Source: Sapria himalayana
Lineage: Eukaryota; Streptophyta; Magnoliopsida; Malpighiales; Rafflesiaceae
DNA length: 64,000 nucleotides
Direction of reading: 5' to 3'
Assembly (NCBI GenBank): GCA_029783825.1
Contig: JAREIK010000801.1
Location: 7,973,571-8,037,570 of the forward strand
Made by a program: the position numbers and the translations under genes. The notes under the pieces were generated by a model. It was not told the origin of the DNA and did not search any database. It saw only the letters and a list, made by a program, of their open reading frames with translations. Below, in pieces: positions 24,866 to 56,361 of the stretch (positions are counted from its first letter, which is position 1; each line of letters begins with the position of its first letter).

Positions 24866-24997
24866 ATGAGGAGGAGGATCCATCCTGCAAGCACCAGCGA
24901 CAACATGAACGATCATCTCGTCTCCCCTGGGGCTGATATTTTAACTAAGCCTCTTCTCACTAATACCGACCTTTTGCCCGATTATCTGCCCACAGAA
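24866..24997 (+). CDS. ELMO/CED-12-domain protein, exon 1
   Basis: The 44-codon exon starts at ATG 24866 (MRRRIHPAST...) and ends at ...PDYLPTE with donor GTGAGC at 24998. Plant ELMO-domain proteins start with a similar basic stretch followed by a (N)EPLL-like motif, here LTKPLL. The four exons in this window join in the same phase and give a continuous ~138-residue N-terminal part that aligns segment by segment with what I recall of that family. The ELMO domain, named after the animal engulfment protein ELMO/CED-12, is linked to regulation of small GTPases; the plant members' role is poorly defined. The catalytic ELMO core lies beyond the window. Recognised from memory, without a database search. 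Confidence 0.8.
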
Positions 24998-25069
24998 GTG
25001 AGCCTCTGTGTTTGCGAGTAACTTTATCTGTTCACTAAAATGGTTTTTCAAGATGCATACGCATTGTAG
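24998..25069 (+). other. Intron 1 (72 bp)
   Basis: Donor GTGAGC, acceptor TTGTAG. It is a minimal intron with no insertion, in phase 0. Confidence 0.75.
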
Positions 25070-25172
25070 GTAGTCGATTCAAAAGATATTTGGATCTTGA
25101 AATTTCGTAAAGAAAGCTTTTGGTGGGCGTTTTGGCTTCCAGAATTGATTATTCAGTGGTCACAATGGTTAG
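25070..25172 (+). CDS. ELMO/CED-12-domain protein, exon 2
   Basis: This 103-bp exon encodes VVDSKDIWILKFRKES, then FWWAF, and ends PELIIQWSQWL plus one base. Known plant ELMO proteins have DIWE..RKKEH..W..LFS.LI.QW.QWL at this position, so the spacing of the aromatic residues and the QW.QWL motif are the key evidence. The acceptor is TTGTAG (25064-25069) and the donor is GTATTC at 25173. The exon ends in phase 1, which matches the start of exon 3 at 33881. Confidence 0.85.
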
Positions 25173-25602
25173 GTATTCACATAATGTTTATAAAGTTGAT
25201 GTTGCTCCTGTACTTAACTGTATTATTTATTCAATAAGATATAATAGTTGAAAATTTGAGTTATGATTTAAATTATCTGAGTTTTTTTTCACGTGACATC
25301 ACAATCATCTAGCTGTCAGTGGAGGCTATTTTGTTCGAGCTGTGTAGCTGTAGCTGTAGCAATTTTTTCTATCCTCTCACTTACATGGATTGTAATGTAG
25401 CTATGTATATTTTTGAAGCATGACGTGATGCTTCATATTAATATACATATATTTGAAAATCGTAGTTTTAAATATAATGATATTTAATAATTATTTCTTG
25501 ATATTAACTATACATATTAATATATTTTACAATAAATTGAATCTCATATATTATCATTTCAAATATATGAATATAAATTAAAATGTATAAATTACTCATT
25601 AT

Positions 25603-25839
25603 TAGAGGTGCTGCAACAAGCGGGATGGGGAGGACCCAACCCTCCCAATAGCTGACACAGTAAGGTCGGGGCAGGTGATGCTTTTCCATGACTTAAAAAA
25701 AATAAAAAATTTTGTTGGAGGTAGTCCTTAGTGGCTAAATATGATGCTGCTCGGGGTTTCTCCCAATGGCCAGGCCAAACATGCATCAAGCTGGTCTACC
25801 CAAAATTGAGTTGGGCCATAGTCAGTTTGTTTGAACTGA
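25603..25839. mobile_element. Small hAT-like MITE (237 bp)
   Basis: It starts TAGAGGTGCTGCAAC and is flanked by CTCATTAT (25595-25602) and CTCATTTT (25840-25847), a 7/8 match to an 8-bp target duplication. The right end (TTTGAACTGA) pairs only weakly with the left. It is much more GC-rich than the surrounding intron. Confidence 0.5.
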
Positions 25840-26264
25840 CTCATTTTTAATACATCTACTTATAATCTTTGTTAAAGCATATTTCAAATATTATTGAAGT
25901 TGACTATATAAATTATAGTTTTATAAGTATTATAATTATTGTATAAATTTTACACATTCAAATCATGCATAGTTTATTTAATCATTTTTATAAATGTCTT
26001 TAATGATTTATTTCATCTTATACTTTTTCTACTTGTAAATTTAAATATTTTTTAATTGATGTTGAGTCATATCTCATTTTTATATGTGATGAACAATAAG
26101 TGAAGAATCAAAATTACATCCAATAATACTCAAACTCAAAATATAAGATATATAAAATACCCCAAATATAATGAGTTAATACAACAGTCTTCCTATTAAG
26201 TATGCAACTTGAACCTTATATATTATTGCGTATTTTACCGGTAGGTGCGTACTTTAGACTCTCT

Positions 26265-26310
26265 ACTGACATGTTTCACTGACATGTTCTACTGACATGT
26301 TCCACTGACA
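26265..26310. repeat. 13-bp tandem repeat, 3.5 copies
   Basis: The unit is ACTGACATGTTYC, with one or two differences between copies. Confidence 0.7.
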
Positions 26311-27043
26311 AATATTAAATTCTAAAATCTTTGGTATAAAATACGTACTTAATTGGGATGCATACTTAAATGGGTGCTTGCTTAAGCGAGAGGTTACTGT
26401 AGATTGAAATAGCTCACATATTAGTTCCTTCAAATTAATAATAAAATAAAAAATAAATTGATAAAAAATTGAAAACTAATAAACTGCAACATTCTCATTC
26501 AAGGTAGTGCATAAACATTAAGAACATCAAACTCAGAGGAAAAATATATAAGATAAAGTTTCTTCTAAGCATTTGTAAAAATATCTGATGACAAATTTAT
26601 TATCTGAATATAAACTATGATAATGCTCTTATTATGAATCTTATCATCGAGGAAAAAGTAATTTATTTTTATATATTTTATTTGCTCATAAAATATTAGA
26701 ATGAATTTTATAAATCTTATTGTCAAGCTATCACAATAAAGATAGGCGATACAAAAAGTGAATATTGATATCTCTTTGAGTATGTCTCTAATTCAAAGTA
26801 TTTTACAGATAATCATTATCATCATCTAGAACTTTTTTTTTGTATTATATCTTAATATAATTGATTTTTTTAATTATTTTTTATTTTTTTATTTTTTTTT
26901 ATTTTTTTAAGATTCAAAATTATTTATAAGAAAAATATAAAAATTCATGGTAGATATTTTTTTGTACCAATTATTTTGCTCGAATTTGAATATTCTATCA
27001 ATTATAGATGTCCATGTTTACTAAAAGATATTTTTAAGTCTTT

Positions 27044-27047
<4 letters not shown>

Positions 27048-27077
<30 letters not shown>
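27048..27077. repeat. (AT)n microsatellite
   Basis: About 15 AT dinucleotides inside a longer AT-rich tract. Confidence 0.9.
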
Positions 27078-27083
<6 letters not shown>

Positions 27084-28999
27084 TATCAATATATGATGAA
27101 TTATATTTGAGTAAACATATTAAAAATAATTTATAAAATGATAACTATACTGACCTCATAAATTATATTTGGTTTGGTGATAATTATATATTAATTTTTT
27201 TGGATGATTGTTCTAAAAATAATATAACCAATTGGAGGAGTCGTATCAGATAATAAATTAATATATGAGTCAATTAGAATATTTTTTGAAACATAATCTA
27301 ATAAATTAATCTTTGTGAGTATATCAATCATATATATTATTGTGATAATATAATATTTTATCTAGAGTAAGTTAATTTTGTTCAATAAAAATATTTTAGC
27401 ATGACATGATTTTTTATTTGTAATAGTGATTTAATATATTTTTTGAGTTGAATTATTTTTAATCATTTATATTTCATAATTAGAATATAATTCAGATACA
27501 CAATAAATAAAATTATTTTTTCATCAGATTTTTTTATAAAAATAAAGAAAAAACTTATAATATGCATGCATAAATCAAACAAAGTAATTGCCTGTAAAAA
27601 TCTCATAAATTAGATTCTTATTAACAATTTTAGGCTATACAATATTTTTTATAGTTTTTAGAGTATTTGATTGTTTTATTTACAATTAAAGTTATTTCTT
27701 CATAATCCATATACTTATATTACTTAAGATTATAATAAAGAAATATATTTTTCATATTTAGTTGGTATATTATCTACCTGTTAGATTGTCATCGACTACT
27801 ATAATACTATCGTACTTAATGATTTTTTAGAGATTATTAATAATTATCATAATATTCAATGAATAAATAAAGTAGTAAAAAAAATAATTGCTTATTATGT
27901 GTGTATTGGCTCAATTGATAATTTATGCGTGTGAAGTGGAAGAATGAGTTATAATAGTAATAGCACTTGAAAATCAAGACGGATTTTTTGCTATCATATT
28001 AGGGAGAAATATTGAATATCCCTTTTTTGGAGGGGTTATAGTGAGAGATTTTTGCGAGGATAAATTTTAATTATATATGAATATGTTAATAAATTTTAAT
28101 TATATTGAATTTGGAGAGTGAAAATCTTTTAAGGTAGGGTGTTATCTTACAGGCTTAAATGACACAGTAGTCTAAGAGTTTTCAACACTACAAACTTATT
28201 GAGTAAACTAAGAGACCTAATCACACAAAACTTAAAGTAATCACTATGAGAGAGAGAGATTATTAAGCTTGCACAAACTAGATACGTGCCTACTTAGGAG
28301 CCAAATGTTATGTAGTCAATTTCTCTAATTTTGGCTTTTGATCATTTTTTGAAAGGGATATAGGAGGTATGTTCAACACATAATTTTACATATTTTATCA
28401 TATTTTAATTTACTACTTTTTTTATTTTTTATTTTTTCCTTAATAATATTAGTATACTTTTATTTTATTTTTATTTCTTTTGATGGTAGTAAAATATCTA
28501 AGTCTCATTGTGAGATATTATCTTATTCAAGATAATATCAGACCATGATAAAAGATATATATATCCTTAGTTCTAATAGAATTTTGAAACTAGTATCATA
28601 ATTTTTAGAAATATTTATTGTTAATTATAAATAAGTATTCATTATAAAGATATGGTAGATCTTGTTAATATAAGACTTATAATGAGTGAATTTACTTAAA
28701 TATTTGATGTTGATTATCCTAATATTTTTTCTTTAGTGATCAAAATAGTTTTAGTATAAATTTTTATATCATTAGTAGTATCTCATATTTAATGTTGTAA
28801 TTTGTTTATTTATTTTATTATTTTATATTTTTAATGGGAATACTTAACTTGTGAGCTATTTCAAATTATATGTGATTAATATTTTTCTATTTCTTTATTA
28901 ATTCAAACATAAATAAGGATATACAAATCATAAAGAACAAATTGGGTATATTGTACAATGAACAATCATTAAGACAAAAACATCCATGTAGATACATAT

Positions 29000-29318
29000 T
29001 TTTTGTATTGGTATGCACATAGGCACACATGCCCACTTTTTTGTGAAGGTGTGTGCACATGTGCTCATCCACACAGACATACATGCATGCACATTTATGT
29101 GCAAGCACACATAGTTGCACATGTGTGAATAGGTTTGTGTAAAGGTGCAAGGTGGAGCATGTGGTAGTTTTGGTGGTGGCATTAGGGGTGGTGATGGCTT
29201 TGGTGTCGATGCCTTTGATAGTGATAATGATGGTGACAGCGATGAGTATAATAGAAGTGACAATGGTGATGATTCTTTCATGGACAAAAATGCTAATTAT
29301 GGTTGTGATAGTTTATAG
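29000..29318 (+). other. CA/TG-rich then GGT/GAT-rich low-complexity tract
   Basis: From 29000 to 29150 the plus strand is a mix of CACA, TGTG and CATGCA words. From 29133 to 29318 the plus strand has an open frame of 61 codons without an early ATG. It encodes a Gly/Asp/Asn-rich peptide (GGACGSFGGG ... DSDNDGDSDEYN) ending in TAG. It probably arose from degenerate GGT/GAT triplets. I do not recognise a protein family. Confidence 0.4.
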
Positions 29319-29334
29319 TAAGAGAGGAGAGAGT

Positions 29335-29362
29335 TATATATATATATATATATATATATAAT
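29335..29362. repeat. (TA)n microsatellite
   Basis: Fourteen TA dinucleotides directly after the GGT/GAT-rich tract. Confidence 0.9.
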
Positions 29363-30640
29363 AATGGAGATTCTTAGTTCATATATATACTCCAGAAAAG
29401 GAGCTACAACAGAGATAATTATTAGATATTATTTTTAAAGAAGAGATCAAAAGTTTTATATAGTATTGAGAGATAGGCTGAATGTCAGAGTCATTAAAGT
29501 GTCTTCTAAAGTTTATTTATTGTGACACTTATAATTACTAGTGATGAGTATACAAAATTTATTCTTATGATAGTAATAAATTAGTTCTTTTTAGTAGGTA
29601 TTACTTGTTTTATCTATACTTTTATTCTAAATTTTTAGATTATCAACACACGAGCTAACAATCATATTATTTTAATTATATCATATTTATTATATTTTTT
29701 TGTTTTAAAAATATTATTATAATCAATAATAAATAGAGATTGATTATTTGTTTGTATATTGAGATTGATTATTTACTTGTATATTTTCAGGTTGGTTATC
29801 CATTAATAATTAAATGGAAAATATTATATTTTGATCTTAAAGATATTTTGGTCTTAGATTCAAAGATATGTTAGTTTGATAAGTTTATCAGAGTTTCCTA
29901 TCTTATATACTAGTATGATTAAATTAGGAATAAATTTGGTTTGATATATTCTGATCTATGAGGATCTAATAGAGATGCAATAAGAGAGTAATTTAGGTAT
30001 TTGATTATTTTTGTTGAATTATATAGATAATCATCTTATTTAGGTTATACATATTTATTATAAATTTTTCTTTATTTTTTGGAGTATTGATAATATGATA
30101 ATTTTGTTGATTGTCTATGTTGATATTATTTTGATTATGAAAAATGATGAGTAAAAAATCACTTAACTTAAGGAATTCTTTCAGGTATAATTTTAGTAGA
30201 AAAATCTTGTAGATATTTTTTAGTCATAGAAATTGTTTATTCTACAAGTAATATCATCATTTCACAAAGGGGATATGCACTTGATACTATTTAATATATT
30301 AATTTTTTGATTTGTGTTGTAACATATATTTATATTAATTTAGATATTAATTTTATTTTTGATTATACTATTTATAAAAAATTATAGATAAAATTAATTA
30401 TTTAATAATGATCAGATTAGATATAATAAACACAAATTATAATTAATTATTTTTTGGATTCTTTTTTTGTATATTTATCTTAATTTTGTTTTTTGCATAC
30501 TGAGGTATATAACGAAGTTTCTAAGATTTGAGTTTCTTTCGGGGATTCGAGATGGGTACTAGCATGCATTGAGAGAAGGTTTACGAAAAAATTTTATATT
30601 TTTATTGGAGACAATATCGTCTCATGAAAAAGTAAAAGCA

Positions 30641-31596
30641 AGGAAGCACGGATACAACTCCCTATAGGCGTGTCCACGTGTCGGACACCTGGACACTGGA
30701 CACGATATGGGCACGGCATGGATACGTGTTCGATATGTCACGTGTCATATCGTTGATCAATCCATATCCGATACGTCACGTGGTATATCGGATAGATGTG
30801 TTGGTTGTCGTGTCCATGCCTATAATGCCCGACGACGTCACCCATAACGGCCAATGGCTTATTCTGTGAGGCGGCGAGGGTGGGCATGATTTTGTGGGGC
30901 GGGGAGGGTGGGCGTGATTTTGTGGGGCGGGGAGGGTGGGCGTGATTTTGTGGGGCGGGGAGGGTGGGCGCGATTTTGTGGGGCGGGGAGGGTGGGCGCG
31001 ATTTTGTGGGGCGGGGAGGGTGGGCGCGATTTTGTGGGGCGGGGAGGGTGGGCGCGATTTTGTGGGGCGGGGAGGGTGGGCGCGATTTTGTGGGGCGGGG
31101 AGGGTGGGCGCGATTTTGTGGGGCGGCGGGGGACGGGCGCGATTTGTGGAGAGGAGGGCGCGATTTGTAGGAGGCAGGGGCGGGCACGATTTTGTTGAGA
31201 GGCAGGGGGTGGGGGCGCGATTTGGGGGGGGGGGGGCTGATTTTTATAAAATAAAATATTTTTATAAAAAAATTATATTTTTATATAATATAAGATTATT
31301 ATTAAATATTATTTTATAAAATAATATAATTATAAATATTATCTTATAAAATAAAATAAAACATAATATTTTAATTTTATAAAATAAAAAAAATATATTT
31401 ATTTAATAAAATAAAATATATTATTTTATTTTATAAAATACCTAATATTTATAAAGAATAATTTTTATTTTTATTTTTATTTTTTTATCATGTCGTATCT
31501 TAGTCGTATTCGTATTCTAGTTTTTTTGAATTTGCCGTGTCCTCGTATCTTGAGGTATCGTATTCTCGTGTTCGTGTCCGTGTCCCTGCTTCTTAG
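30641..31596. mobile_element. hAT MITE (956 bp) with G-rich minisatellite
   Basis: The 8-bp target duplication AGTAAAAG is exact on both sides (30633-30640 and 31597-31604). The ends are CAAGGAAGCACGGATAC and, inverted, CTAAGAAGCAGGGACAC. Subterminal regions are rich in GTGTCC/GGACAC words (30668-30800 and 31555-31590). The interior holds the 28-bp minisatellite (30865-31240), then a strongly AT-rich part. There is no transposase. Open frames on both strands across the repeats are artefacts of the 28-bp period. It is inserted into copia fragment A. Confidence 0.9.
30865..31240 (+). repeat. 28-bp G-quadruplex-type minisatellite
   Basis: Nine complete 28-bp units run from 30865 to 31116, and degenerate units continue to about 31240. 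The seven units from 30893 to 31088, and the one after, carry GGGGCGGGGAGGGTGGG: four G-tracts with single-base loops, a pattern known to form very stable quadruplexes. Units 4-9 are identical at every position, which indicates recent spread by slippage or unequal exchange. Confidence 0.92.
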
Positions 31597-32160
31597 AGTA
31601 AAAGGATTTAATTGTTTTAAGATTCAATATATAGATAAAGTTCATCATGATAATGCTAGTTATTTGTGAATTATATTCAGTGCATCATCTACTCTAGAAG
31701 ATTAAATTTTTATTTTTTATTTTACTATTTTTTAATAGTATAGTCAGATGGTAAAGTATATAGTCTCAAATTTAGTATTTCATGGGTAGACAAATTATAT
31801 AGATATGGATTATTTCTTTTTTAGAGAAAATATTTAGAATGAGATTATTATTATCATCATATATTCATATAATATAGTAGTTAGTTGAAATTTTTAATAA
31901 GGTCTTGAAGTGATTTGCACTTATTTTTTTTTTCAAAGTTTGATGCTATAGATTTGTATGTATTGACTTGATAAATGTATTATAGTTTGCTTATTTATTT
32001 TATTATTATATATTTATGATGGGAGCACTTAATCCATGGGTTGCTCAAATTCATTTTTTTAATTTTATAATGACATGATTGCATGATGTTATATTTGTAC
32101 ATTAATTATATTTTTCTATTTTTTTCATATTAATTCATATAATTGGAGGATACACATGTT

Positions 32161-33480
32161 ATATATGAAGAATGTATTTCATCATGGTAATTTTGAAGAG
32201 GAGATATATATGGCGCAATCACATTGGTTTCGAGCAGCAAATGCACAACTAGTTGTATATTATGGATTATATTGCATGACTTAAATTAGTTATCGAGAGC
32301 TTGGTTTACGAAATATTTATAGGTAGTTATTTTATTTGGTTTATACATATATATTACAGTTTGTTTTTTTTAGAGGTATATTAATGATAGGGTGATTTTT
32401 GTTGATTGTTTACATAGATGATATTCTGATTATGGAAGATGATGAGTAGTGGATTATCTAACTTAAGGAGTCTCTTTAGTCATAATTTTAAATAAAGGAT
32501 TTTGAGCGACTTATATATTTTCTTTGTATTGAGATTACTTATTCTATGAGATATTTTCATGTCATATAGAAGATATGTGATTAGCACTCTTGTATATGTT
32601 TGTCTTTTAAGGTGTACTTTAACAAATATTTTTATTTATTTAATTACTGACTTCATTTCTAATATGATCATTATAGTTGACTTTTCTATTTATAAAAGAA
32701 TTATAGGAAAAATTATCAATTTGATTATGATCAAATCAGATATAATATGTATAATTATTATAATTAGTTTTTTCTTAACTATTTCTCAATAAATTCACTT
32801 TGATATAACTCTTTGCATATTAAGGTATGAGAATAAATCTCTGAGACTTGTGATTTGTGTCAGAGATCATTGATACTTGCAGTTGATTGAGTATTAAGAT
32901 TCGAGTTAAGTACTAATATGTAATAAAAGAAAGTTAATGATTGGGTTTTGTATTTTTTAGAGGTAATTTATTTTCTAAAAAAGTAAATGCAAATAGTTAT
33001 TCTAAGATCAATAAAAAGAATGAATTTAGAGTGATGATGACAATTATTTCTAAGATATTTTTGATATGTTATTTGCTCTAGGAGTTTTCTTTTCAAGCTT
33101 TTTATTATGATAGTCATACAATAAGATATATAATCTTAAATTTAATATTTTACGAGCTGACGAAATACCTAGAGCTGGAATACTTTTTCTTTAGAGAGAA
33201 GATCCATGGAGAGACATCAAATTATTTTAGTTTTTTAAAAATTTGACGTTGTGAACTTGTATGAATCATTTTGATGGAGGATATTATATTTTATTTATTT
33301 ATTTTATTTTATTATATATTTTTAATTAGAGTACTTGACTAATGAGTTGCTCTAATTCTATCTGTTCATTTTATATGAACATGATTCTGTGATGTTATTA
33401 TTTAGTATTTTTATATATTTTATTTTTTGAATTAATTCATAATAGTTTTTTTTTTTTTTTTTTTTACTAGTCTATTAAGG
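32161..33480 (+). mobile_element. copia fragment B
   Basis: It begins abruptly in reverse transcriptase: VKNVFHHGNFEEEIYMAQ at 32170-32220 matches the copia FLHGxLEEEVYM box. YVDDILIMEDDE follows at about 32415-32450, DFSIYKRIIGKIINL at 32675-32720 (RNase H side), and a region homologous to 31604-31930 at 32930-33200. An LTR-like sequence (AGAGTACTTGACTAATGAG) follows near 33327. Gag, protease and integrase are missing, so it is a 5'-deleted copy joined directly to the LTR of fragment A. Confidence 0.65.
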
Positions 33481-33880
33481 CATGTTATTTTTTTGTCCAT
33501 TTCATCATTAATTAAACATTTGTTCATTTATCACTTTTTTGAATTATCTTCAACTCTTGAAAAATATTTATTGTGCAAGATAATCTTAGACAATAATGGA
33601 TCACCACATGAATGCCTATTATGAAGTATGAACATATCAAGATATAGCCAGACATCACTACAAATCTTAATTGTTGGTATCTTTTCTCTGTGTTGGTAAC
33701 AATTTAGAAAAATGTTAAGGTCTTAAATATTTACACAAATGAGTTGGTATAGACATAGAGCACCAATTTCAGCAAAATGTGTGAGTGCTTGTATTATATA
33801 TGCTTTTTCAATTGTAAGGTGTTTTATTATAACATTGCGAGGAGCATCATTGTATAATTGATCCTTCTTTGTTTTTGTAG

Positions 33881-33993
33881 TGAATATTTTTGTAGCAACT
33901 GGATCACTTCTTGGGAGATTTTTACCAATACATTCTACTAGTCAAAATGGATCAGGCAGGATGCTTCTTGAAATTTGTGTTGATCCATTACAG
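33881..33993 (+). CDS. ELMO/CED-12-domain protein, exon 3
   Basis: The exon begins after the acceptor TTTTTGTAG. Its first two bases complete a Val codon with the last base of exon 2. It encodes NIFVATGSLLGRFLPIHST, then SQNGSGRMLLE, and ends CVDPLQ before the donor GTATCT. Plant ELMO proteins have (A)NIV..SGSLFGR..PF..xxQ ... LSPLQ here. The retained frame, splice sites and family match argue that the exon is still used although it lies between 8.7 and 22.3 kb of transposon-rich intron. Confidence 0.85.
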
Positions 33994-34711
33994 GTATCTC
34001 TGTAGGTTTGTTGGTGATCTAAGGACGTGTTTGTTTTGCATTCCTGGTATTATGTTTATATAATTATTTTATGTAATGAAGTCATGCCTTAGTATGATGA
34101 CAAGTATATTCACTCAAAAACAATAGATTCTGGGTTCAAGACTATTCGATGTAGTCTCTCTAATATATTGGTGGTAAGACTTGTTGAGATATATACTTTT
34201 CTAAGATGTTGGATTGAATAGAAACTTGGTGTGCTAGGTATGATAACAATAATTATTTTATGTAAAATTTAAGTTGTATGGGTCTTAGGGTAGTTCGATC
34301 TTCGGTATTTCTTCAATTCATGCTTTTCATTAAACCTTGATTACTTTATCCAATGTATATGATAAGAAAATGGATAGACTGCTAAGCTATCTCAAGAATT
34401 CAGAACTTGATGCATACAATGGAGCATATACTTTCCTGAAGCTTTGTTGTGTCTCTGAGCAATTCTGTTCGATTTGAGGGGTGTCCAGGTGACAGTGCTT
34501 CTTTATAGTATTCTGTCCTTTTACTCCGTGTACAGTAGGAGACAACAGATTAGTCATCACCTTAGTCTCACCTCATACTCATGGTACTTTATTTATCTGT
34601 ACACTATGTGGAGTTAGTGTTGACAACTAAACTCACTCTAATTTGTATCATTACTAAGCCTTACTAATTATGTCTAGTAATTAACTGTCAACTATGAGAA
34701 AGTTATTGAGC

Positions 34712-37700
34712 TAGAGGTGTCAAACAGGCCGGGCCGGCCCGGCCTATTTTTTTAGATCACGGCCGTGCTTTTGTGTTGGGCCAGGCACGGTCTGGCCAAA
34801 CCTGACCATACGGGCCAAACCAGGCCGTATAGGCGCGGGCCTGGTTTAATTTTTTTTTAAATTTTAAAGTTTAATTTTTTAGTTTAAATAAAATATATAT
34901 TATATTATATATAGAATTATAGATAAAGTATAATATATTACAATTATAAAATGAAAATTGTTAAAAATTTATTAAATTATAAAGTTTAATTTTTTTTATA
35001 ATTTAAAATAAAATTAGTTTATAATTTATTAGAATTAAATTATAGAGTTTAAAATTTTTAAATGAAAAATTTAAACAAACAAATAAATTAAACAAAAAAT
35101 TTCATTAAAAAAAATTTAAAAGTCAAAAAAATCAAAGCAAACCAAATGAGAAATGACCAATCAGGCAATCAGTCATTAGATACCGAAGGTCCGAATCAAA
35201 TAAATTCAAATTTCAACGTAACGTAAAAATAAAGCGTACAATCAATAAAAAATAAAACATCAAAATCAAAAAATATTAGATCATCATCAATCATCAATCG
35301 GCATATCATGAGCATCATCAGCCGCAATATCAAGATCACTATCATATAGATCATTGTCATCATCAATCAACTCCTTCATTTTCGTAGTGGATGCGGATGC
35401 AGTCCCTGTCCCAGCTCCAGCATGATCATGGATGCTAAACCTCGAATTCTCTCAATCCTTCAAACAGGCCAAGGCCTCAATAATATCTGGACGTAATCTC
35501 GATCTCCTATTCGAAATCACATTCACTGCAACAGAAAAAGCAGACTCTGATGCTACGCTCGACACCAGAGGAGTCAGTAGATCCCGTGCCATCTTAGATA
35601 GCACGAGAAAGGTGGACTCATATAATTTTTACAACTGTAATATATCAAGATTCTTAGTATCAGAATGTGATAGGATTGAGCAGTAATTGATATCTAAGTA
35701 CGGAGAAAGCTCATTTCTATGTGATGGTCCACCCTGACGTTTCTTCCTCGCTAGCTGAATGAAAAAATCATCTCCGAACAAAGTATCCATGTTCATAATC
35801 ACAGTCTCACTACTATTACTACTATCACCATACCTAGTATCGTAGTATGTAAACAGATCGGTCAACTTCTCGTGAATGAACTCTTCAGGTGGATCTTTCA
35901 TGTTCATGCACGAGGAAATGTAAGTTAGAGTATTTTCTATCCATTCCACCTTAATCCTAGGGTCCATGCATGCAGTGAGGTAATAAAGAGATGAAACGGT
36001 GGACCAGTATTTTAAGTACTTTATTTCATCTTTGCAACCATATGGCTAAGTGTCGGGTCAGCTCGATACTTCTTAAATATGCTACTAATATTGCATATGC
36101 ACCTGAGTGCAATGCAAGTTGTGAGCGTATAAACCGACGAACACATGTTCTTCGTGTCATAAAAAATCTTCAGGAATTTTATTTATGAAATTCCTAAAGC
36201 CCAGTCAGTGTCGTCAATAATAAGTTCATCACTCTTATAATTGGCATAGTCGGATATTACGTATTCGTATCCAACATATTACTCCAATATCATGTACGTG
36301 TAATTCCAATGATATCTCACATCTGATTGGAATTTTTTCTTCTTAAGATTCGCAGACAAACAAAGACTATCAAACTCTTGTTGTCTGTGAGGAGTGCGAA
36401 TATATTTTAGTGCATTACGTGTATTTTCTAAGGTGGGGGAACATACCTTCATACCTGTTTGAACAATCAGGTTAATCACGTGATACATGCATCTGATATG
36501 AAAAATCTCTCTTAATGGTGCATCTCTAATATTCCTAACAAACATGTTAATTGTCACTTCATTATTAGATGCGTTATTGAATGAGATACTAAAAATTTTA
36601 TTCTTAATTTTATATTTCCTAAAAATTTTCATCATACACTCAAAAATGACCGGGTCATCATCAGGATGAAGAATCATAGAGAATCCTAAAATTTTTTTAT
36701 TCATAGTCTAGTTAAAATTTACATTGTGGCTGGTAAGACATGCATAAGATGATTCATCGTGACTTGTCCAGATATTGGACGTCACGGACACCACTCCACT
36801 ATATGCCATAAATTCATTAATTATTTTATATTTTTCTAACTTATATAATTTTAATATGTCATTTCTAGATGTGGGCCTAGGAATTATATGATAAACAGGC
36901 TGAAAATATATCTGTATGATGCGCAATACTCTCGATTTTTCGAAAATCTAATCGAAAGATTCATCAATGTGATAAGTCTGGCCATGCCGTCTCTACCTAA
37001 CTCGCTGGAGTATATGAAAGGAATAAACTTTGAGACTGTATTATATCCAGTCTCAAAAAATGCAGTGCCAAGTTGGGTTTGCCTAGAATCGAATGGATCA
37101 TGTTTTTTGGTGCATTATTCGGCATGACTCTTAAGGTGCCCAGTCCCAAACGAACTCTTACAAGTTAAAATTTTCATACAATATTTGTACTGTGTCATTT
37201 TTTCTTTCTTATTCCTAATATTTTTTTTTGTTTTATTATATTAAAATGAGTCTAAAATATAGAAGCCCTTCTAGTTTTTTGTTTTTTAGAGGTTTGCGTT
37301 GAGATCACTGGAGAAACCAAAGTTTCAGCAGTTTTAGACTTCTAAGTAAGATTTTTATTTTCTAAATTTAAATATGTTTTATTAATTTTTGTTATTTTTA
37401 GAATTTTTGTTAAATAAGACACTTATGTAGAAACTAGATGATAGATTTTAGATTTAACTATTTTAGGACTAGAGGGAAAGAGACTAGACTAGAGACAGAC
37501 TGAGAGAGAGAGAGAAAAAAAAAACTTAAAATAAATTATATGGTAAAGCAGTGAGGTTGATCACGTGCACGATGTATCACAGTCTAGCTCAAAATTTGAA
37601 ACCCGAGTTGAGATTCCCGAAAAGTCAAGTCAAATGACGAAATCACGAGTCTCGAGAGAGAGGAGCAAGATTTTTGAGAGATTAAAAATGTGAGATTTGA

Positions 37701-45000: not shown

Positions 45001-45446
45001 ATCTCAAATTTGAAAATTAACAAAAGTAATTCTTTGAATTCACTTGATAATTTCTACTACATCGTGCTTATTAAATACGTACTTGTTATTAGCTCGTGCA
45101 AACATCATTATGAATAATTGATGGTTCACCTAAGATGTGTGAACAACATATCTTTGGAAATTGGATTTAACTTAGATGACAATGTGATTCAGTGATTGGC
45201 AGATGTATGAGTCTTGTTCCTCCATTGTTATTATTGCTACAATTTGTTGGAGAAGTCAATTGAGGCTTATGGTTTGAATCAATATATTTAATTTTTATTT
45301 GACGAGGTTTGTGGTTTTTTTTTGGGTTATAGTTTGTGCCCTATCATATTGTTGGGTGATTATCATGACTCAAAAGTTCATTGGTGTTGAGCAATTTGAT
45401 TTTGTTGTAGTTGCTTATGTTTTTTATTTGTTTTAATGTTATGTTG
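42011..45446. other. AT-rich intronic stretch without recognised features
   Basis: No family motif was found on either strand. The only notable item is a (TA)n tract at 44652-44674. Confidence 0.4.
44652..44674. repeat. (TA)n microsatellite
   Basis: About eleven TA dinucleotides. Confidence 0.85.
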
Positions 45447-45940
45447 TTGGGACTTGGGAGTACCTAACATGTAGGATGCTCCAATATGATTTGCCCATTA
45501 TAATAAGAGCTTTGTCTATATGTATTTTATAATTGAATGTTATTATTTTTAATATTTTTGAGTTTATAAATATAAGAGTGAAGTTGATGGTAATAAACCT
45601 TTGAGAGAAAAATATGTGTATTGTACTAGCACAATGCGTGTATCTTTTGCAACAGTGAAAATCTTGTATAATTATCGTTCACAATTAATTTGTATAGTTT
45701 GTGCACAATTAATGTGCACAATTTGTGCATAGTTGCTGTGCATCAGTACCCTTTGCATTGATGGTGTGTTGGTTGGAGTGTCGGTGGTGCATGACGGTGC
45801 ACTCAATATTGTTTTGGTGCAATTGAGGCAGCCCAAAACAGGGTTACAGCATAATTAGGGTGCCCTAAATAATTAGGATTCTGGGGCAATTTTGAATTTC
45901 TTGTTATTTTTACTCTAATTAGGGTTTTGGAAAATTTTTT
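45447..45940 (+). repeat. LTR-like remnant with GGAGYACC..GGWTGCTCC motif
   Basis: The start, GGGAGTACCTAACATGTAGG then ATGCTCC, resembles the LTR starts at 32017, 59648 and 62372. The following ~400 bp share word patterns with 59648-60080. It is probably a solo or partial LTR; the end is approximate. Confidence 0.4.
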
Positions 45941-45966
45941 ATATGTGGATTAATGTTTATTTTAAG

Positions 45967-48900
45967 TAGAGGTGTCTAATAGGCTATGCTGGGTTGATGT
46001 GGCCTGAATTTTGGTGGCCCACTTGGGCCACCATGTCGTGTCATTCATGACATGCAATGGGTGCCCTGCGATGTCGTGCCGACGCGAGAACATTGGAGGC
46101 CAGCCTGACATTGGCCAGATGGCTTCCTCTCTCAATTGGGCATGCTGGGTCAGACCTGGTCATGCTGGGTCTTGTTGGCAGTGGAACAACACTGCCATTG
46201 ACCAAAGTCCTAAACAAGATAGTGGCCAGGCCATTGTAGTGCAGTGCCTATCCCATGGCCTAGTTTGCTGGTTACTACCACAGTGTCATTACACTGACAT
46301 TCGCAGTATGACAAATAAATAAATAAATAAATTTTAAAGTTTTAACTTTAAAGTATAATTTTAATTTTTAAAAATAAAAATATTAAAATTAAACTGCACT
46401 ATACTATAAATTAATTTATATATATAATTCAGCTGTCAATAAAAAAAAATATATTTTGTATTTGCGGTATGACAAATAATAATAAATTAAAAAATTTTAA
46501 AAGTCATCAATAACAACAACAACAACATGCATCACCCTTTCGTAACCAACCGGTCTCTGTAGTATGATTCAACTCATTATGTCAAATAATGAAGTTAGTA
46601 GTAATCTTAACATTTTTTATATTACATGAGTTAGCATTTACTAGTAGTTTTTATATTTTATTTGAAACACTTATCATTAAATCCTCATAATTTGTTGGGC
46701 ATAAAGTGCTTTTATAATATGTGGTCTTAGTTTATATTTTTTATTTGAAATAATATTTATCAGACACATAAAAATATATTTTTTGCAACTCTAAATATTA
46801 GAGGGGTCAATAAATCTTGTATTATCTTAAATAACATATGAATTCATATGACTTCTATTAATTTAATATATTTAAATTTTTATTATAATCATGTGATATG
46901 ATGAAATATTAATTAATATCTAGATAACCCGTTTTTATTTGATAGATTACCTTATTATTTTATTAATAATATATCTATATTTTTATTATTATTATGTGAA
47001 TTCATATATTTTATATTAATAATATATCTAAGTAAATTCATATAATTTTATTAATTCAAAATTTTTATTATCATGTAATAGGATGAAATATTAATCAGTA
47101 TCTAAGTATATAGACAACTCGCTCCTATCCAACAGATCATCCTATTATTTGTTTCCAACTAATTGAATAAAAAAGTTATTGACTCTGAATATAATATTAA
47201 TGTTCATATGGAAAATAACATTAAATTTAAACATTTATTTTTAAATTTAAATTTTAAGTAAAATTTTAATTTTTAAAAATAAAAATATTAAAATTAAATT
47301 ATATTGTACTATAAATTAAAATGAATAAAATTTAAAAATTAAAAGTCACCATCAACATCAATAATAACATGCATCACACTATAGTCCTTTGATATTCGTG
47401 ATTATTCTATATCTATAGTGTGATTTAGATCATTATGTTTGATTCTGAAGTTAGTTGTTGTTTCAATATTCTCAATGTTATATGAGTTATTATTTATTAG
47501 AAGCTTTTTTATTTTATCTAGAATACTAATCATTGAATCCTTATAGTTCTTTAAGTATAAACTTGCTTCTATAATATATGATAATAATTTGGATTTTTTA
47601 TCTGAAATAATATAATTAGTCACAAAAAAATTGATTTAGATGTTATTTTAAATATCATAGGGGTCAGTAGTTCACGTATCATCTTATATAACATAAAATA
47701 AGTGAATTTATATGATTTCTATTAGTTTAATATATCTAAATTTTTATTATTATCATATGATTGGTTGAAATATTAATCAGTATCTAAGTATCGAGATAAC
47801 TTGTTACTATTCAATAGATTATCTTGTTGTTTGTCTCTAGCTAATTGAATGAAAAAATTATTTTCTCTAAATATGATGTTTATATTCTTATTTGGAGCCT
47901 CGCTATAATTATCATACTTGGCATTGTATTATGTGAATATATTTTTATTTTTTGTGAATCTAACTATTTAGTTCTTCCACTTTGTTTATGTAGGTGGATA
48001 TATATTTTAATATATTTTTTATTTCTTTCATTATAATATTAAAATCTTTATATGCAGCAAAGTAATAAATAGATAGAATAAAGGATCAATCTTTTAATCA
48101 ATGTGTCATTTATAATTGCTAAATATACTATCAATTATAGTCTTTTATAATTAATAAACATAATAATAAGTTTATCATTTTTATTATTGATATAGTAACA
48201 TATCACATATTATTATTTAATTAATAATTTTAATATCAGGTATGTATAATTTCAATGGTTTCAGACATCTCTTTGAAAAATTTTTTTTTTAGGCCAATTG
48301 ACAAATATAAAGTATAAGTTTATTATATGATATATATCATAAGATATTTTGGTGATTTTCTTATATTTTTTAATGTAAAAGAAATAATTGTTATTTTTGC
48401 TTGCATCATTACATTAATTATATGACATATATTTAAGATGAAAAATGTCAGAAAATTTTTTTTTAATGGTTCTGATAAACATGTTAATATTGTTATTATT
48501 ATTTAAAATATTATTGAATGTAATATTAAAAATTTTATTTCGAATATCATATTCTTTAGAAATTTTTGTCAGACATTTTATAAATATGTGTCATTATGAG
48601 GATAAAGAATATTATGAATTCATAAAATTTTTATTTAATTTTTACTTAGAATCAACATAGTAGGTGATGAAACATGCAAATAAAATGTCATACCAACTAC
48701 TCTAGATGTTAGACATCATAGAGACCATTCAACACTATATATTTTTTAATTTTGTTAATTTTTAAATATTTATTTAATTTAAAATATTTTATTATGTCAT
48801 TCATATTAGTCGACTTGGAAATTCTATGATAAATAAGTTATAAGTAACTTTCTTTAGTATTTATTTTAAGATCTTTTGATTAATAGGAATATCTATTTTA

Positions 48901-49018
48901 ATAATCAATTTTACCATGTTCTCTCTCTCAATGTAATTATGATAAATGAATGAGGACAATAAATTTTAAGTTATTTAACCCCGGTGGCTTTGTCATTAAA
49001 TCGAGTTTCCTTGGAATC
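45967..49018 (-). mobile_element. Degraded hAT element with internal duplication, right end missing
   Basis: The left tip is TAGAGGTGTCTAATAGGC. The interior follows the 34712-38259 element from its left end through the hATC and central transposase regions (46790-48850). The last homologous stretch, ending ...CCTTGGAATC at 49018, corresponds to about 37085 in that element. The sequence then switches directly to another hAT tip. The hATC-coding region is present twice in tandem (about 46320-47210 and 47215-47880). Most CpG sites have become TpG or CpA, which indicates age. Confidence 0.65.
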
Positions 49019-49303
49019 TAGAAGTGTCAACTTGGTTGTGTGGCTCAGGTACGACATGATTTAGTCGTGTTTGGCATGACATGATTCAGTTATGCCTGGC
49101 ATGATATGGTTCGATTTAGAATTGTCTTGGTTTTTGGCATGGGAGGCATTGCACCGCATGACCCAGTACAATTGTTTATGTGGGCTAGTTTTGGTCCTGA
49201 TCAAAACTAGCCCAAGGCTAACACGACCAAGCTTAACTCAGCTTGGCAAGACTCAGCACAACCCAGTACAACCCAGTACAACTCGACCAAAATGTGTGCC
49301 AAT

Positions 49304-49782
49304 TAGAGGTGTCAAATGGGATGTGTCGGACTGGCCCGGCCCATTTTTTTCAGGCCCGACCATGCTTTCGTGCTGGGTCAGACACTGCACCGTTAATGTA
49401 CCGTGCCGTGCCTGGCCCAGCATAGTTTTGTGGAGTTCAGCTCGGAACGGGCCCGTGGCACGATCCGCCGGGGTTCAGCCCGAAATTAAAAAAATTCTGA
49501 AACCCTAAATTAAAAAAAATTAGGGTTTCGGCGCACCCGAAACCCTAATTTTAAAATAAATTAGGGTTTTGTCATCCTCGTAACCCTAATTTTAAAAAAT
49601 TTTGGTTTCGGCAAGGTATCGTACCAACGGGCCACCGTGCCGGGACAAGCACGCCACGACACGATTGTGCCCTGGTTGGGCACAGCACGAGCCCGGGCAT
49701 GAGAAATTTTCTTGCCGAGCCGGCCCAGGCACGGCCGAATCGTGCCGTGCCTCGTGCTGGGCCGGCTCGGTTGACACCTTTA
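49304..49782. mobile_element. hAT MITE (479 bp) with perfect target duplication
   Basis: It starts TAGAGGTGTCAAATGGG and ends TCGGTTGACACCTTTA, flanked by GTGCCAAT exactly on both sides (49296-49303 and 49783-49790). Its interior includes three copies of an AAACCCTAATTTTAAA-like unit (49500-49600) and GC-rich ends. It is younger than the surrounding hAT sequence. Confidence 0.93.
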
Positions 49783-50689
49783 GTGCCAATGAGTCATACT
49801 AGGGTGTCAATTTTCAAATTTAGTTTGACATAACATGATCCTTTCGATATATCTACCAATATCAACTATACAATGTTTGTGTATTGATCGACATATCTTT
49901 TAAAGTGACTAGTACAAATGAGTTATGAGATGTAATTTGATGGCTCAAAAAAATATTAAAAAGTTATTTTTTTAATTATAGCTGACATGACAGTGAAAGA
50001 CACTATCTTGTCAATGCCTTCTCAGCATCTGAACAAGCTATAAAAAGAGTAATTGTTTAAAAAATTATTGCTTATTTTTTAAAATGTGATCATGCCAGTA
50101 TGTCATGCCACCATGCTTGCCACGACATGAGGCTTTTTAGTCTCTAGCATGGCAGGACACGAGCCATGTCTAGCGGTGTCATGTGGGTGTTGGAAGTTCA
50201 GGTACGACATGAGGTACGGTTCGAAATAGCCTTGTTGGGTCATACATAACATGGTTGATAACTGTGCTTGGGACCATTGTCGTGGCAAGCCTGTGACACT
50301 ACTTATGTTGTGTTGGGTTGAAAGCAATTGTGACTTATGCTAGGCTAGTCATGGATGTGTGAGTGGTACATTGGCATGTTCCACATGAGCAAGGGGCATG
50401 ATCATGTGGCATAAGGCATATGTTTAAAAAAAACCCAGCCTCTCCTTATTCGTTATGCTAACCATAATAGATAAGAATCCCCTACCTCGACAATGATAGT
50501 GACATGCATTATCATGTTATTGTTATTGTTAATAATAAAGATAAAAAAATTATATAGTTTTATTTTATTTTTTATAGTTGTTAAATTTGTTTCTAAAAGC
50601 TCTTGGGTAGAAATATAACATATCTTGGAATTATTGTTTGGTAAATGAATCTTTTAAGTTGGTCTTTTCAGTTCATGCATGAGGATGTG

Positions 50690-52110
50690 TATGTCATGAT
50701 GTTCTTTACGTATTTAATCTTAATTCTAGTGTTCATGCAGACAGTCAGACAATAAATAGATAGAATGGTGAATTAATACTTTAAGTATTTGGTTTTCATC
50801 TTTACAACCATATTGCTAAATATTGGGTCATCTCTAAACTTTCTAAACATGTTACTAATGTTGCATATGCACCTGAGTGTAATGCAAGTGGTGAGAGTAT
50901 GTATTAATAAATACATGTTCGTCGTATCATAAAAAATTTTTATGAATTTTATAAATCAAATTTTTATAGCCCAGTCAGTATTGTTAATAATAAGTGTGTC
51001 ACTTTTATTATTGACATTATCATATATCACATCTTTATTTGCAACACATGACTCTAACATCAGATATGTGTAATTCTAATAGTATCTCATATTCGGTTAG
51101 AATTTTTTCTTCATTAGATCCATAGACAAATAAATACTATCAAACTTCTATTGTTTGTGAGACATATGAAGAAATTTTAGTGAGTTACATATCTTTTCTA
51201 AAATGGGGGAAACAATCTTAATTCATGCTTATACTATAAGGTTAATGATATGACACATGTATTTAATATGAAAAATCTCTTCTAATAGTCCATCTCTAAT
51301 AGTACTAACAAATATGTTAATATCAACTCAATTATTAGATGTATTATCGAATATTATATTATATATTTTATTTTGAATATTATATTTTCTAAAGATTCTC
51401 ATCATGCACTCATAAATGGACAGGTCATCATGAGAATGAAGAATCTTGGTGAATCTTAATATTTTTTTATTTAATGTTTATTTAGAATATACATAGTGGG
51501 TAGTGAGACACGCATAAGATACATCATCATGACTAATCTAAATATCAAACATCACAGATATCATTTCATAATAATTCATAAACTCTTTAATTATTATTTT
51601 TTCTAACTTATAATATTTTAATATGTCATACTTAGATGTAGACCTATGAATTCTACGATATGTAGACTAAAAATAAGTCTGCATGATACTGACTACCCTT
51701 AGAATCTCTGAAAATATAATCGGAAGACTCATTATGATGATTAATTTAACAATGTATTTTCTTCATAACTCGTTGCGATATATGAAGGGGGTCAACATTG
51801 AGGTTGAACTGGATCCAACCTCAAAGAATTTACTATTGAGTTGAGTTTTCCTAGGATGTAATGCATTATATTTTTTATTGTATTATTTGGCATGTCTCTT
51901 AAGGTGCTCAGTCTCATATGAACTCTTACAGATTACTATTTTTTTATAATATTTATATTGTGCTAATTTTTCTTCGATACCCCTAATATTTTTATCCCTA
52001 ATATTTCATCTTCTAATTTTTTATTTTTTAGATATTTGGGTCGAGGTGACCGGAAAAATCAAAATTTGGCGGTCTCGAATTATTTCGTAGGATTTTTGTT
52101 ATCTATATTA
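50690..52110 (-). pseudogene. hAT transposase remnant
   Basis: The nucleotide sequence parallels 35880-37320, for example GTTGCATATGCACCTGAGTG at 50854 against 36093. Stops occur in all frames. Only homology to the better-preserved copy identifies it. Confidence 0.7.
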
Positions 52111-53151
52111 TAATTTTTTATATTTATATTAAAATTAATTTCATTATCATAATTAAAATTATTAATTATCATTTTTATTTTTTATTAGTTTTTTAATTAT
52201 ATTGTAATTAATATTATTAAAATTATATATTAATTTATATTAATTAAACTAAAACTAATACTCATAATGAGTAAAATTTTGTTTGCCTTTTGATGTTCGC
52301 ATTGCAATCAATAAGTCACATTCCAAACCGAGTCTCGAAAGTCAAAACGAAATGAGAGACCAAGAGAGAGAAAGAGATGAGAGGATATGAAAAGAAAATA
52401 TGGGAGATAGAGAGAGATAAATTATAAATTATAAATGGAGGGGGAGGGGGAGGGGGGTGCGGTATTTTATAGATTTGAAAAAACTTAAAAAAAAGCAATT
52501 TTTTTATATATTTTTTGAAGTTTTTAAAAATTTCTAAGGAGCAGAATCTCCAGGGCCTTTGGATTCTGCCTTTTAGCCATTGATGATGAAATCTAACGGC
52601 TAAAATAAAAAAACATGATTTGTTTTGGATCGTTGGGTTGGTTCGATTGTTGAACCGACCCAACAGTCACTAGTTCCAAAAGTTTCGGTTTCTGGAATCT
52701 GTAGTCGGGTTCGGGTAGGGGAGACATGATCAATAGGTCGGGCTCGGGACCAACAAAAAGTCATGCTCGGGGGGTGAGGGAGGGGTGCTGTGCATGGTTT
52801 GGGTCGTGCCGAAATACTGTGCCTTCAGTCCAAGGTATTGGGTCGTGCCTAGCTTGGCACAACATGGCACGAGCCGTTCCGAGAGTTAGCATGACACGGA
52901 CCCAAGCATGGATCTGGATCGTGCTGTGTGGGGTAGGAATGATAGAGTTTGGCCATGCCTTGGGCCGAGCCTGAGCTACCAAACCTGTTTGACACTTTTA
53001 TTTGGTTCGTGCCACATGGATGCTCTTAGCCAATCACGTGGCACACTAATTAAAAAAACCTACCACGTGTACCATTTGGGGTGAGTTTTTTAATTTTTTT
53101 TAAATTTTTTAAAATTGATTGGGCGAGGTGGGCACAAGCCAATTAGACCGT

Positions 53152-53482
53152 GCTTGCTTTCTAATTCGAAGTCTGGGTCACGATACATGTGTCAGTGGAT
53201 AGTGTCAATGGTCAGGCACCTGGGTCATGCTTGGCCCAGTACTAGGCATGACATCTCCTGGCCCTGCACGGCATGAGCCTTGCCTCGGCCCTACATGACC
53301 CTTGTTGGGCACTATTCTGGACCATGTCGTGTCGGGAAAAGCATGGCTCAGTCAGGTCGTGCCGGGACAAGCATGGCTCAGTCAGGTCGTGCCGGGACAA
53401 GCATGGCTCAGTCAGGTCGTGCCGGGACAAGCATGGCTCAGTCAGGTCGTGCCCTATCCTTTCTGCCCACTTGCTACCTCTA
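53152..53482. mobile_element. hAT terminal fragment with 30-bp tandem repeats
   Basis: It ends GCCCACTTGCTACCTCTA at 53482, a variant of the right tip of the family. The sequence immediately after resumes in hAT interior sequence (equivalent to about 36280 in the element at 34712), so this fragment sits inside another copy. Its left end was not found. Confidence 0.5.
53326..53453. repeat. 30-bp minisatellite, four copies plus a partial
   Basis: Units begin at 53326, 53356, 53386 and 53416, with 8 bp of a fifth. The unit starts GTCGTGCCGGGACAAGC. Units 2-4 are identical and the first differs at two positions. Several overlapping open frames here are by-products of a period divisible by three. 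Confidence 0.92.
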
Positions 53483-54304
53483 CATATACATCTAATATCA
53501 GATATGTATAATGTCACCGGTATTTGATTTTTATTTGAAATTTTTTAAGGCTAATTGATAAATATAGGATATAAAATTTTTGTTGTCTTTGAGATCTCTC
53601 AAAGTATTTATTAAATTAATTATATGACATATATATCCACTGTAAAAAATATTACCTAAGAGTTTGTTTATAATGATTTTAACAAATATATTAATTATGA
53701 TATCGTTATTTAAAGTATTATTAAATATAATACTAAAAATGTTATTTTAAATATCATATTTCTTAAAGATATTCAACATATAATCATATATGATGAGACT
53801 ATCATGAAGATTAATGATCACTTTAAATCTTAATTTTTTTTATTTAATTTCCACTTAGAGTCAACATAGTTGATGGTGATGCATATGAATGTATCGTCAT
53901 CACGACTATTCTAGATGTTATATATCACAAAGACCCCTCTATTGTGTTTCTAAGTTCTTTAATTTTTATTTATTTTTTTAAATTAAAATATTTTATTATG
54001 TTATTTTTATTGATAGACTTTTGAATTTTATATTAAATAGATTGGAAGTGAGTTTGCATAATATGAATTAGTCTATGATCCTCCTAAAATCTAATCAGAA
54101 GACTCATGCTAAAAATTAATTTTATTATATTTTTTTCTTTCAAACTCATTATAGTAAAAGAATAGGTCAATAAACTTATAGTTTATTCAATTTCAAATAT
54201 CTTACCATTCAGTTAAGTTTATCTGAGATCTAATATATCATATTTTTTGATATAATGATTGACATAATTTTTAAGATAGTCAGTGTTATTAGTATTCTTA
54301 CATA

Positions 54305-54341
<37 letters not shown>

Positions 54342-55285
54342 CGTTGAATTTTCTTCGACACACCTATAATTTTTATTTAATTATATTAAAATGTGTTAAC
54401 AATACTAAATTTGCTTATTTTTAAAAATTCTAGATGTATGACTCAAGATTAAGAGAAATATTAATTTATCATTATTATTTATGTTTATGTCTAATCAATA
54501 ATTATAATATTTATTGTTTATATTTTTTAAAATCTAGTAGATTAGAAGTATGAGAAAAAGAGTAATTTTTTATTTATTATGGTTAATTTATTTATTTATC
54601 TAAAAAATATTAATTAAAATAAAAAATATATGCAACATAATGCGTATTTTATTTTATTTGAGTAATACATATATTTTTCTCTACCTTATGTACTTGTACT
54701 CATTCTTCGAAGTTGTAACTCATCAAAATTATTCCATCGCTCCTACAAATAAAAATAATAACTAAAAATGACAAATGTAAAAAAAACAATGTTTTTAGAA
54801 ATTTATAAAAAAAGAAGAGAAATAAGATGATGAGAGATTATAGATAAATTATAAAAAATAAAAAATATTAATATGTTATTTATATAATTTTTTTTTGATT
54901 ATAAAAATAGTTTAAAAATTTTCTAGGTTAGAAATTTGATATCTATCGGATTTCACCCAAAGAGCCATAGAATTAAATGCATTAGTTGAAAAAAATTAAA
55001 ATTTATTATTATAATTTTAGAATGACATGGCAGTGACATGCAATCGGCTATGTTGTCATTTTACTTTTGCAAAATGAGCTGTTTTACAATGACTGATATG
55101 GTTTTTGGCCTGGGTATGTGCCCTTTTGTCATGTCGCAATGCCTCAAATGACACGAGGTCCATGATGCTCTGGTACAATCAACATGAGCCATGCCAAGGG
55201 CTGGAATGAGTTTGATCCATGCTTTGTTTTGGATTGTGCCTGGTCATTGGCCTTGCTCGGGACACCCGTCCACTTGACACCTTTA
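53483..55285 (-). mobile_element. Right half of another hAT element
   Basis: From 53490 to 54400 it follows the central and BED-encoding region of the transposase gene (compare 36290-37260). A GC-richer end block runs 55020-55285 and finishes GTCCACTTGACACCTTTA. The left half is missing or replaced by the fragment at 53152-53482. Confidence 0.6.
54305..54341. repeat. (TG)n(TA)n microsatellite
   Basis: About ten TG then eight TA dinucleotides within decayed hAT sequence. Confidence 0.9.
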
Positions 55286-55591
55286 ATTAGATGTACATTG
55301 CCACTTAATTTCAGTTAGTTAAATTATATAAAGAATGGATCATTTTTAAATATTTGTTGAGTTATGATATTTATAGAGATGCCATCATATTTATTTTTAT
55401 ATTATTTCTTTATAGGTGATAACCAATACACCATACTTCTTGCTTAGTATGAGATATTAGAGAGATTGATATCTCGACATTCTTATTCCAAAACTCGGAT
55501 ATATCATAGCTAATAAGTCTCAAACATAAGACTTATCATCTTTGGATGAAGACACATACCATAATACCAAGATATGACTTGTATTTTCATT

Positions 55592-55622
55592 ATAGTATAT
55601 ATATATGTGTGTGTGTGTGTGT
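55592..55622. repeat. (TA)n(TG)n microsatellite
   Basis: A short TA run followed by about nine TG dinucleotides. Confidence 0.85.
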
Positions 55623-56292
55623 TTACTTATTTGTCTATATCGCTATCTGGTCTGGATTATAGATTCATATAATAAGCTGTAAATTCTAAAATATTTTTTA
55701 TATAATATTGACAATAATATATTAAATCTTATAAGAATTACAAAATTAAAAATATTTAGTCGAGAATATCATTATGATGGTTGATCGTTTGAGAAGTACT
55801 CATGGTGTATGATTATATTGGAAGTCATACATTAGTGTGATAATAAATATTTTTATCTAATTGAGATAGGAAAAGTCTTGGTTTCTAAAGTTATCAGATC
55901 TAGTTTTTTTGATTTTTGGATATAAACTTATTGAAATATTAATTTCTTTTAAATTCTGCTCTAATGTAGAAGTTGTGTACTAGGTATGCGTATGACCTCC
56001 ATGAACTCTATTTTTTTATACAACATTAATTTTTAGATTCATACAAAAAACTCACCAATAAAATGATAGAATGATTGTCCAATATTTTAATATTTTTTAC
56101 CAATATATATTTCACTAAAAAGTGAGTATTTTTATATTATTGAAACATAGTATTTATGTTGTAAACAAAAATAATTATAAAAAAGTGATTTAAAAAAATC
56201 ACTTTTACTTTGTTTGAAAAATCAATGCATTGTATTCTAATTTTTATTGTTGTTTCTATTGATTGTTGATTCTCTCAAATGTGATTTTGAAG

Positions 56293-56361
56293 GTGAATCG
56301 TCTCAAAATAATACAAAAAAGGGTTAGTGTGCCTTATGATGCTTCAAATCGAGAACATCAG
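56293..56361 (+). CDS. ELMO/CED-12-domain protein, exon 4
   Basis: This 69-bp phase-0 exon encodes VNRLKIIQKRVSVPYDASN followed by REHQ. It matches the start of the plant ELMO domain, (EE)RLxxLxxRlxVPFDgSrxEHQ, which directly follows the SPLQ sequence of the previous exon. The acceptor is TTTTGAAG after a T-rich tract; the donor is GTAATA at 56362. The exon continues the frame from ...CVDPLQ. The downstream exons, with the conserved ALRxLW and MGWQGTDPSTDFR motifs of the family, are not in the window. Confidence 0.88.

Follow-up and report, generated by a model that had tools for sequence, protein, structure and literature searches.

A probable ELMOD_F-type gene with an intact coding sequence and four greatly enlarged introns in the holoparasitic plant Sapria himalayana

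A nine-exon ELMO-domain gene on one contig

We analysed a 64,000-nucleotide stretch of the genome of Sapria himalayana, a holoparasitic plant of the Malpighiales (the window; C801:7973571-8037570, where C801 stands for contig JAREIK010000801.1), in which an earlier note had proposed four short exons of a plant ELMO-domain gene. We hold with high confidence that the window gene is an ELMOD_F-type gene for which no second copy was found, that its nine exons code for an intact ELMO/CED-12 protein of 316 residues, and that four of its introns have been enlarged to 8.7-22.5 kb. ELMOD proteins elsewhere are GTPase-activating proteins (GAPs) for small GTPases of the Arf/Arl type. The whole genome searched comprised 2,057,677,315 bases (2.06 Gb) in 18,497 contigs.

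Within the window the gene lies on the plus strand. Exon 1 (24866..24997) begins with an ATG at 24866, encodes residues 1-44 and ends at a GT donor, and its own-genome match is at C801:7998436. It is separated by a 72-bp intron 1 (24998..25069) from exon 2 (25070..25172; phase 0 in, 1 out), after which come intron 2 (25173..33880), exon 3 (33881..33993; phase 1 in, 0 out), intron 3 (33994..56292) and exon 4 (56293..56361), which encodes residues 117-139 and in which the ELMO domain match starts at residue 123. We found that exons 2-4 are preceded by AG and that all four exons stand before GT, as had been claimed for their splice sites, and the proposed phases of 0, 1 and 0 were likewise recovered, with the four exons joining into 139 codons without a stop. 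The introns, put earlier at 8.7, 22.3 and at least 7.6 kb, measure 8,708, 22,299 and 22,475 bp; the last of these, intron 4 (56362..78836), runs past the window end, and its in-window part is 56362..64000.

Exon positions past 64000 are given here in extended window coordinates, on the same contig (C801) and the same strand. Although inspection by eye and by motif revealed no ELMO-like stretch on the plus strand at 56362-64000, a check for further exons downstream found five at 78837-92477, in the right order and phase and open to a stop codon, so that the proposal of one plant ELMO gene is borne out. These are exon 5 (78837-78952), exon 6 (79047-79101), exon 7 (91904-92024), exon 8 (92119-92261) and exon 9 (92379-92477, ending in TGA), all on the plus strand beyond the window and in loci L008 and L009. 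Introns 5-8, measured on the assembled gene model, are 94, 12802, 94 and 117 bp long, and the intron sizes of the gene as a whole split into four at 8.7-22.5 kb and four at 72-117 bp. The nine exons form a 951-base coding sequence (316 residues plus the stop) with no internal stop, the dinucleotides at the intron borders are canonical GT/AG at 16/16, and the phases agree across all nine exons. The coding span is 67,612 bp, where the earlier note had given 31 kb; the gene is about twice as long as in that first reading, and it is intact and was correctly recognised from four small exons. A reading of raw sequence can find such a gene from exons of 69-132 bp each, which is the size range of the four in the window.

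When the nine exons were searched against their own genome, each matched C801 once (exon 6 weakly, E=0.01), and the remaining matches were two paralogues. The Pfam ELMO family profile gave six matches in the whole genome, of which two are on C801, on the same strand and 14.8 and 28 kb beyond the window end, and two are at each of two other loci. The pre-mRNA is predicted to be transcribed through the large introns and to have them spliced out, and we infer that this is a working gene.

The ELMO domain and plant homologues

The full protein matches Pfam PF04727 (ELMO_CED12) over residues 123-287 of 316 (E=2.7e-49; 168.1 bits versus a cut-off of 23.3). Because the match covers residues 123-287, what the window itself holds is the N-terminal extension and no more than the first ~17 domain residues. 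The four window exons alone gave no Pfam match, a homologue search with their 139 residues alone, padded with X so that full-length candidates would be reached, yielded 76 candidates but no match at E<=1, and a search of the PDB with the N-terminal part returned a single irrelevant match (E=2.1). With the full protein there were 1,040 homologues at E<=1e-3, and the comparisons reported here rest on the 120 listed of these 1,040. All 120 carry PF04727, and every one with a named species comes from a plant. Identity is highest, at 54-55% with 100% query coverage, for four proteins of the Malpighiales genera Dovyalis, Erythroxylum, Populus and Hevea.

Eight of the nine residues of the motif WEYPFAVAG are retained in the window gene, which has WEYPFAAAG; the motif is found in all six Arabidopsis ELMODs and in most other plant ELMODs (PMC8483735). 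The earlier claim that the four exons spell an N-terminal ELMO sequence is upheld by the full-length comparison, in which residues 1-139 align with plant ELMO N-termini (best identity 45%, median 39% over the 120 homologues), and in a seven-row alignment the N-terminus is aligned throughout all four window exons.

Matches in the PDB were to chains of human ELMO1 (E ~1e-18) and ELMO2 (3e-15) in entries 6tgb, 7dpa and 6idx. The likeness is a sequence match only and concerns the common ELMO/CED-12 domain, at residues 115-298. The ELMO1 chains are longer (727-733 residues) and the ELMO2 chain has 524 residues, whereas the plant protein is of the single-domain ELMOD type.

Clade placement and search for a second copy

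On the basis of ranking and GAP residues, 120 homologues were called F-type and another 120 E-type. Two trees were made from rows chosen for species spread, one with 44 F-type rows and the other, a tree of the domain, with 10 F-type rows, 23 E-type rows and the two paralogues. In the domain tree the window gene is placed with the 10 F-type proteins and apart from the 23 E-type proteins, with support of 99/98 (starred). The F label depends on a single homologue, P0008, whose source describes it as like AT3G03610, and At3g03610 is the Arabidopsis ELMOD_F gene (eLife 2021, PMC8483735). With this plant ELMOD_F clade the window gene shares its architecture over the full length: an RRR(L/I)H-type N-terminus, W.QWL and GSL..R, followed by a single ELMO domain that carries the arginine of the GAP region. 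It differs from the clade in domain identity, which has a median of 63% to the 120 F-type homologues versus 84% among those homologues.

An intact close paralogue elsewhere in the genome, which had been named as a result that would count against the gene, was searched for and none was found; the two further ELMO loci are far more distantly related. One is an E-type ELMOD paralogue on the minus strand of G000:C2991 (about 2471030-2478514; L017/L018), with a branch of 0.11 in the domain tree. The other is a third ELMOD gene on the plus strand of G000:C2950 (about 3272586-3282400; L014-L015), in which an 8-kb intron splits the domain exons; its branch is long (1.02), in a domain tree whose references, all of the E and F clades, do not include its own clade.

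Selection, descent and alternative explanations

There are no stops in the 316 codons of the window gene. Neutral simulations to equal protein divergence, which were of substitution only and without indels, gave on average 8.4 stops under unbiased and 12.8 under AT-biased mutation, and zero stops were reached in 0/300 runs each. At near-invariant columns of the 120 homologues the common residue is kept at 86 of 99, versus 91 of 215 other columns (Fisher p=1.8e-14). Because stops are absent against the neutral expectation and the near-invariant sites are kept, we conclude that the gene has been under constraint for a long time in the past.

Several results weigh against reading it as a constrained, vertically inherited gene of the F clade. 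The clade sampling of the domain tree is of F and E only, with A/B and C left out. At positions 121 and 129 (MCR numbering) the window gene has Asn and Ala, while its F-type homologues have Asp121 in 120/120 and Gly129 in 119/120 (the one other being Asp/Cys); in the published survey position 121 is always Asp outside the E clade, and Gly129 is present in nearly all A/B and F proteins, five of which have Ala instead (PMC8483735). Asp121 is a correlate of the clade and not its definition, and therefore what we claim is that the gene is F-type on phylogenetic grounds, with GAP residues unusual for that type. In the 44-homologue tree the terminal branch of the window gene is 1.98 changes per column versus a median of 0.16, or about twelve times (1.13 versus 0.069 on the domain alone), and the common residue has been replaced at 13 of the 99 near-invariant sites, GAP positions 121 and 129 among them. 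To judge by this long branch and these changed sites, selection may be relaxed or altered. With regard to descent, a tree in which the gene is held together with Vitis is worse by 5.84 log units and is not rejected by the approximately unbiased (AU) test (p=0.218).

The branch length and the changed sites could also result from decay, that is, from a gene which is structurally intact, under relaxed selection and on its way to loss, with intron growth as part of the process. The lowered domain identity to F-type homologues would fit such a course, as would the gene loss of about 54% in Sapria given in a published abstract. We nevertheless consider decay unlikely, since the frame is continuous through 316 codons without a stop and every intron border is canonical, since no neutral run under either of the two mutation biases was free of stops, and since the catalytic arginine is kept. 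The gene is thus constrained but fast-evolving. What stands of the ongoing selection suggested in the earlier note is past constraint; with a terminal branch about twelve times the median, the case does not extend to ongoing selection at full strength.

Another explanation is that the gene is host-derived, having come by horizontal gene transfer (HGT) from the Tetrastigma (Vitaceae) host, and this we regard as very improbable. In the tree of 44 homologues plus the gene the best placement is with Malpighiales (94/98, not starred), from which the top four homologues also come. Rafflesiaceae themselves are placed in Malpighiales (PMC528834). The AU result for the grouping with Vitis speaks for a transfer, and at least 98 such transfers are reported in Sapria, but the HGT genes of this plant are compact and it is the vertically inherited genes that have longer introns (PMC10246380). 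Vertical descent is preferred because the best tree lies in Malpighiales and because long introns are typical of inherited genes. It is scarcely credible that the exons are instead four unrelated open stretches brought together by chance, or that a misassembly has joined two genes into a chimaera. Introns of up to 22.5 kb do make the joins harder to trust, and there is the missing Pfam match for the four exons alone; against this, the joined protein is matched over 100% of its length by full-length homologues, the order of the exons holds in the alignments, and all the exons are on one contig and one strand. A chance origin is refuted because full-length homologues of the joined protein exist.

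GAP-region residues in the three ELMOD genes

The window gene retains its catalytic arginine at residue 178, equal to R127 in MCR numbering, and DFR is kept in all three ELMOD genes. For the comparison of these residues we draw on the ELMOD study of Zhou et al. (2021). R127 is the invariant GAP-region arginine of MCR and is essential, and positions 121 and 129 set ELMOD specificity (eLife 2021, PMC8483735). By analogy with other family members, the window protein would act as an Arf/Arl GAP through its retained arginine 178.

The E-type paralogue on C2991 has kept Asn121 and has Gly in place of the diagnostic Cys129, where 120/120 of the E-type homologues examined have Asn/Cys and the published count for Asn121/Cys129 in E-type proteins is 69/69 (PMC8483735). 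In ELMOD_E a change of Cys129 to Gly lowered the neomorphic activity and did not abolish it (PMC8483735). The third gene, on C2950, has Asp121/Gly129. In two of the three detected ELMOD genes the specificity positions have been rewritten, at 121 and 129 in the window gene and at 129 in the E-type paralogue, and we put forward only tentatively, as a doubtful proposition, that this may be the sign of a membrane-domain (pollen-aperture) pathway which in Rafflesiaceae has become re-specialised or loosened. A word search of one paper found no pollen-aperture description of Sapria, ELMOD was unmentioned among the matches listed from the parasitic-plant literature, and the word Rafflesiaceae was absent among the matches listed in a further literature search. 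Because swaps at these positions have already been tested in Arabidopsis, it is these altered GAP residues of two ELMOD genes that could interest researchers of pollen apertures and GTPases.

Introns, repeats and genome context

Introns of at least 1 kb are reported in 53.1% of Sapria genes, and introns of >100 kb in 23 genes (BMC Biol 2023, PMC10246380). Because such introns are reported so widely, the long-intron architecture of the window gene is already described and is ordinary for this genome. The long-intron genes of Sapria, which are argued to be functional (PMC10246380), are like the window gene in that their coding sequence is continuous and their introns are of kilobase scale, in a genome rich in AT and in repeats. 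The longest intron of the window gene (22.5 kb) is well below those of >100 kb, and there is no essential difference. The term ELMO has no occurrence in the main text of that paper, to which this count is confined (PMC10246380). Taken alone, the gene adds one case to the Sapria pattern already described, and it is a clean, checkable example, from a parasite genome with giant introns, of a short gene that has stayed intact as transposons entered its introns. The GC content of the window is 28.9%, and that of the S. himalayana genome is 27.47% (PMC10246380). PF00504 (chlorophyll a/b-binding), the sole photosynthesis family searched, had no match in the genome, and the same search was positive in 1 of 14 controls, a cyanobacterium.

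The genome repeat searches covered three stretches of the introns. In intron 2 the stretch at 27.3-30.8 kb consists of repeats in inverted arrangement that are mostly 66-75% identical, together with a short piece of 85-89%. In intron 3 the stretch at 35.4-37.2 kb is part of a family for which a first look gave 22,699 candidates. Forty of these were scored, and with its own copy and one 32-base piece set aside, the best-scored other copies are 86-89% identical; an open reading frame in the stretch has a match to the hAT transposase RNase-H-like domain at 26.7 bits, just under the Pfam cut-off of 27. The stretch at 47-50 kb of the same intron holds other, older repeat families that are 66-90% identical, mostly 70-78%. 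It had been suggested that the introns are filled with transposons of CACTA age or older; in the three stretches of introns 2 and 3 on which this was tested, CACTA age is no fitting description of the hAT family and the older repeats, and the one CACTA element that was identified lies upstream of the gene.

Rfam and tRNA scans of the window gave no match, and neither, as expected, did plasmid records queried with one exon region. Of the 50 listed stop-to-stop stretches with at least 80 residues in the window, 20 were compared with Pfam, and 17 of these 20 had no match. Weak matches to OSK, PRP38 and BacA in such stretches were rejected; from its look, we take the stretch matching BacA to be a copia-type reverse-transcriptase piece.

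Two tandem arrays lie in the introns, a GC-rich one with a 28-nt unit in intron 2 (30861-31149; ten copies, 96% matches) and one with a 30-nt unit in intron 3 (53326-53453; 4.3 copies, 97% matches). Just upstream of the gene, with its end about 270 bp short of the start codon, is a block with short tandem repeats (23895-24590) that is GC-rich within a window of 29% GC; it shares an inverted match of 86% with intron 3 at 49707-49770. Farther upstream is the degraded CACTA-type element (1614 to about 16122; ~14.5 kb), which has CACTACAACAAAA-like ends and sub-terminal repeats and contains a clear Pfam match to DUF4218 at 10759-11151 on the minus strand. Within this element is a nested palindrome of 2.8 kb (2879-5699), the arms of which are about 90% complementary.

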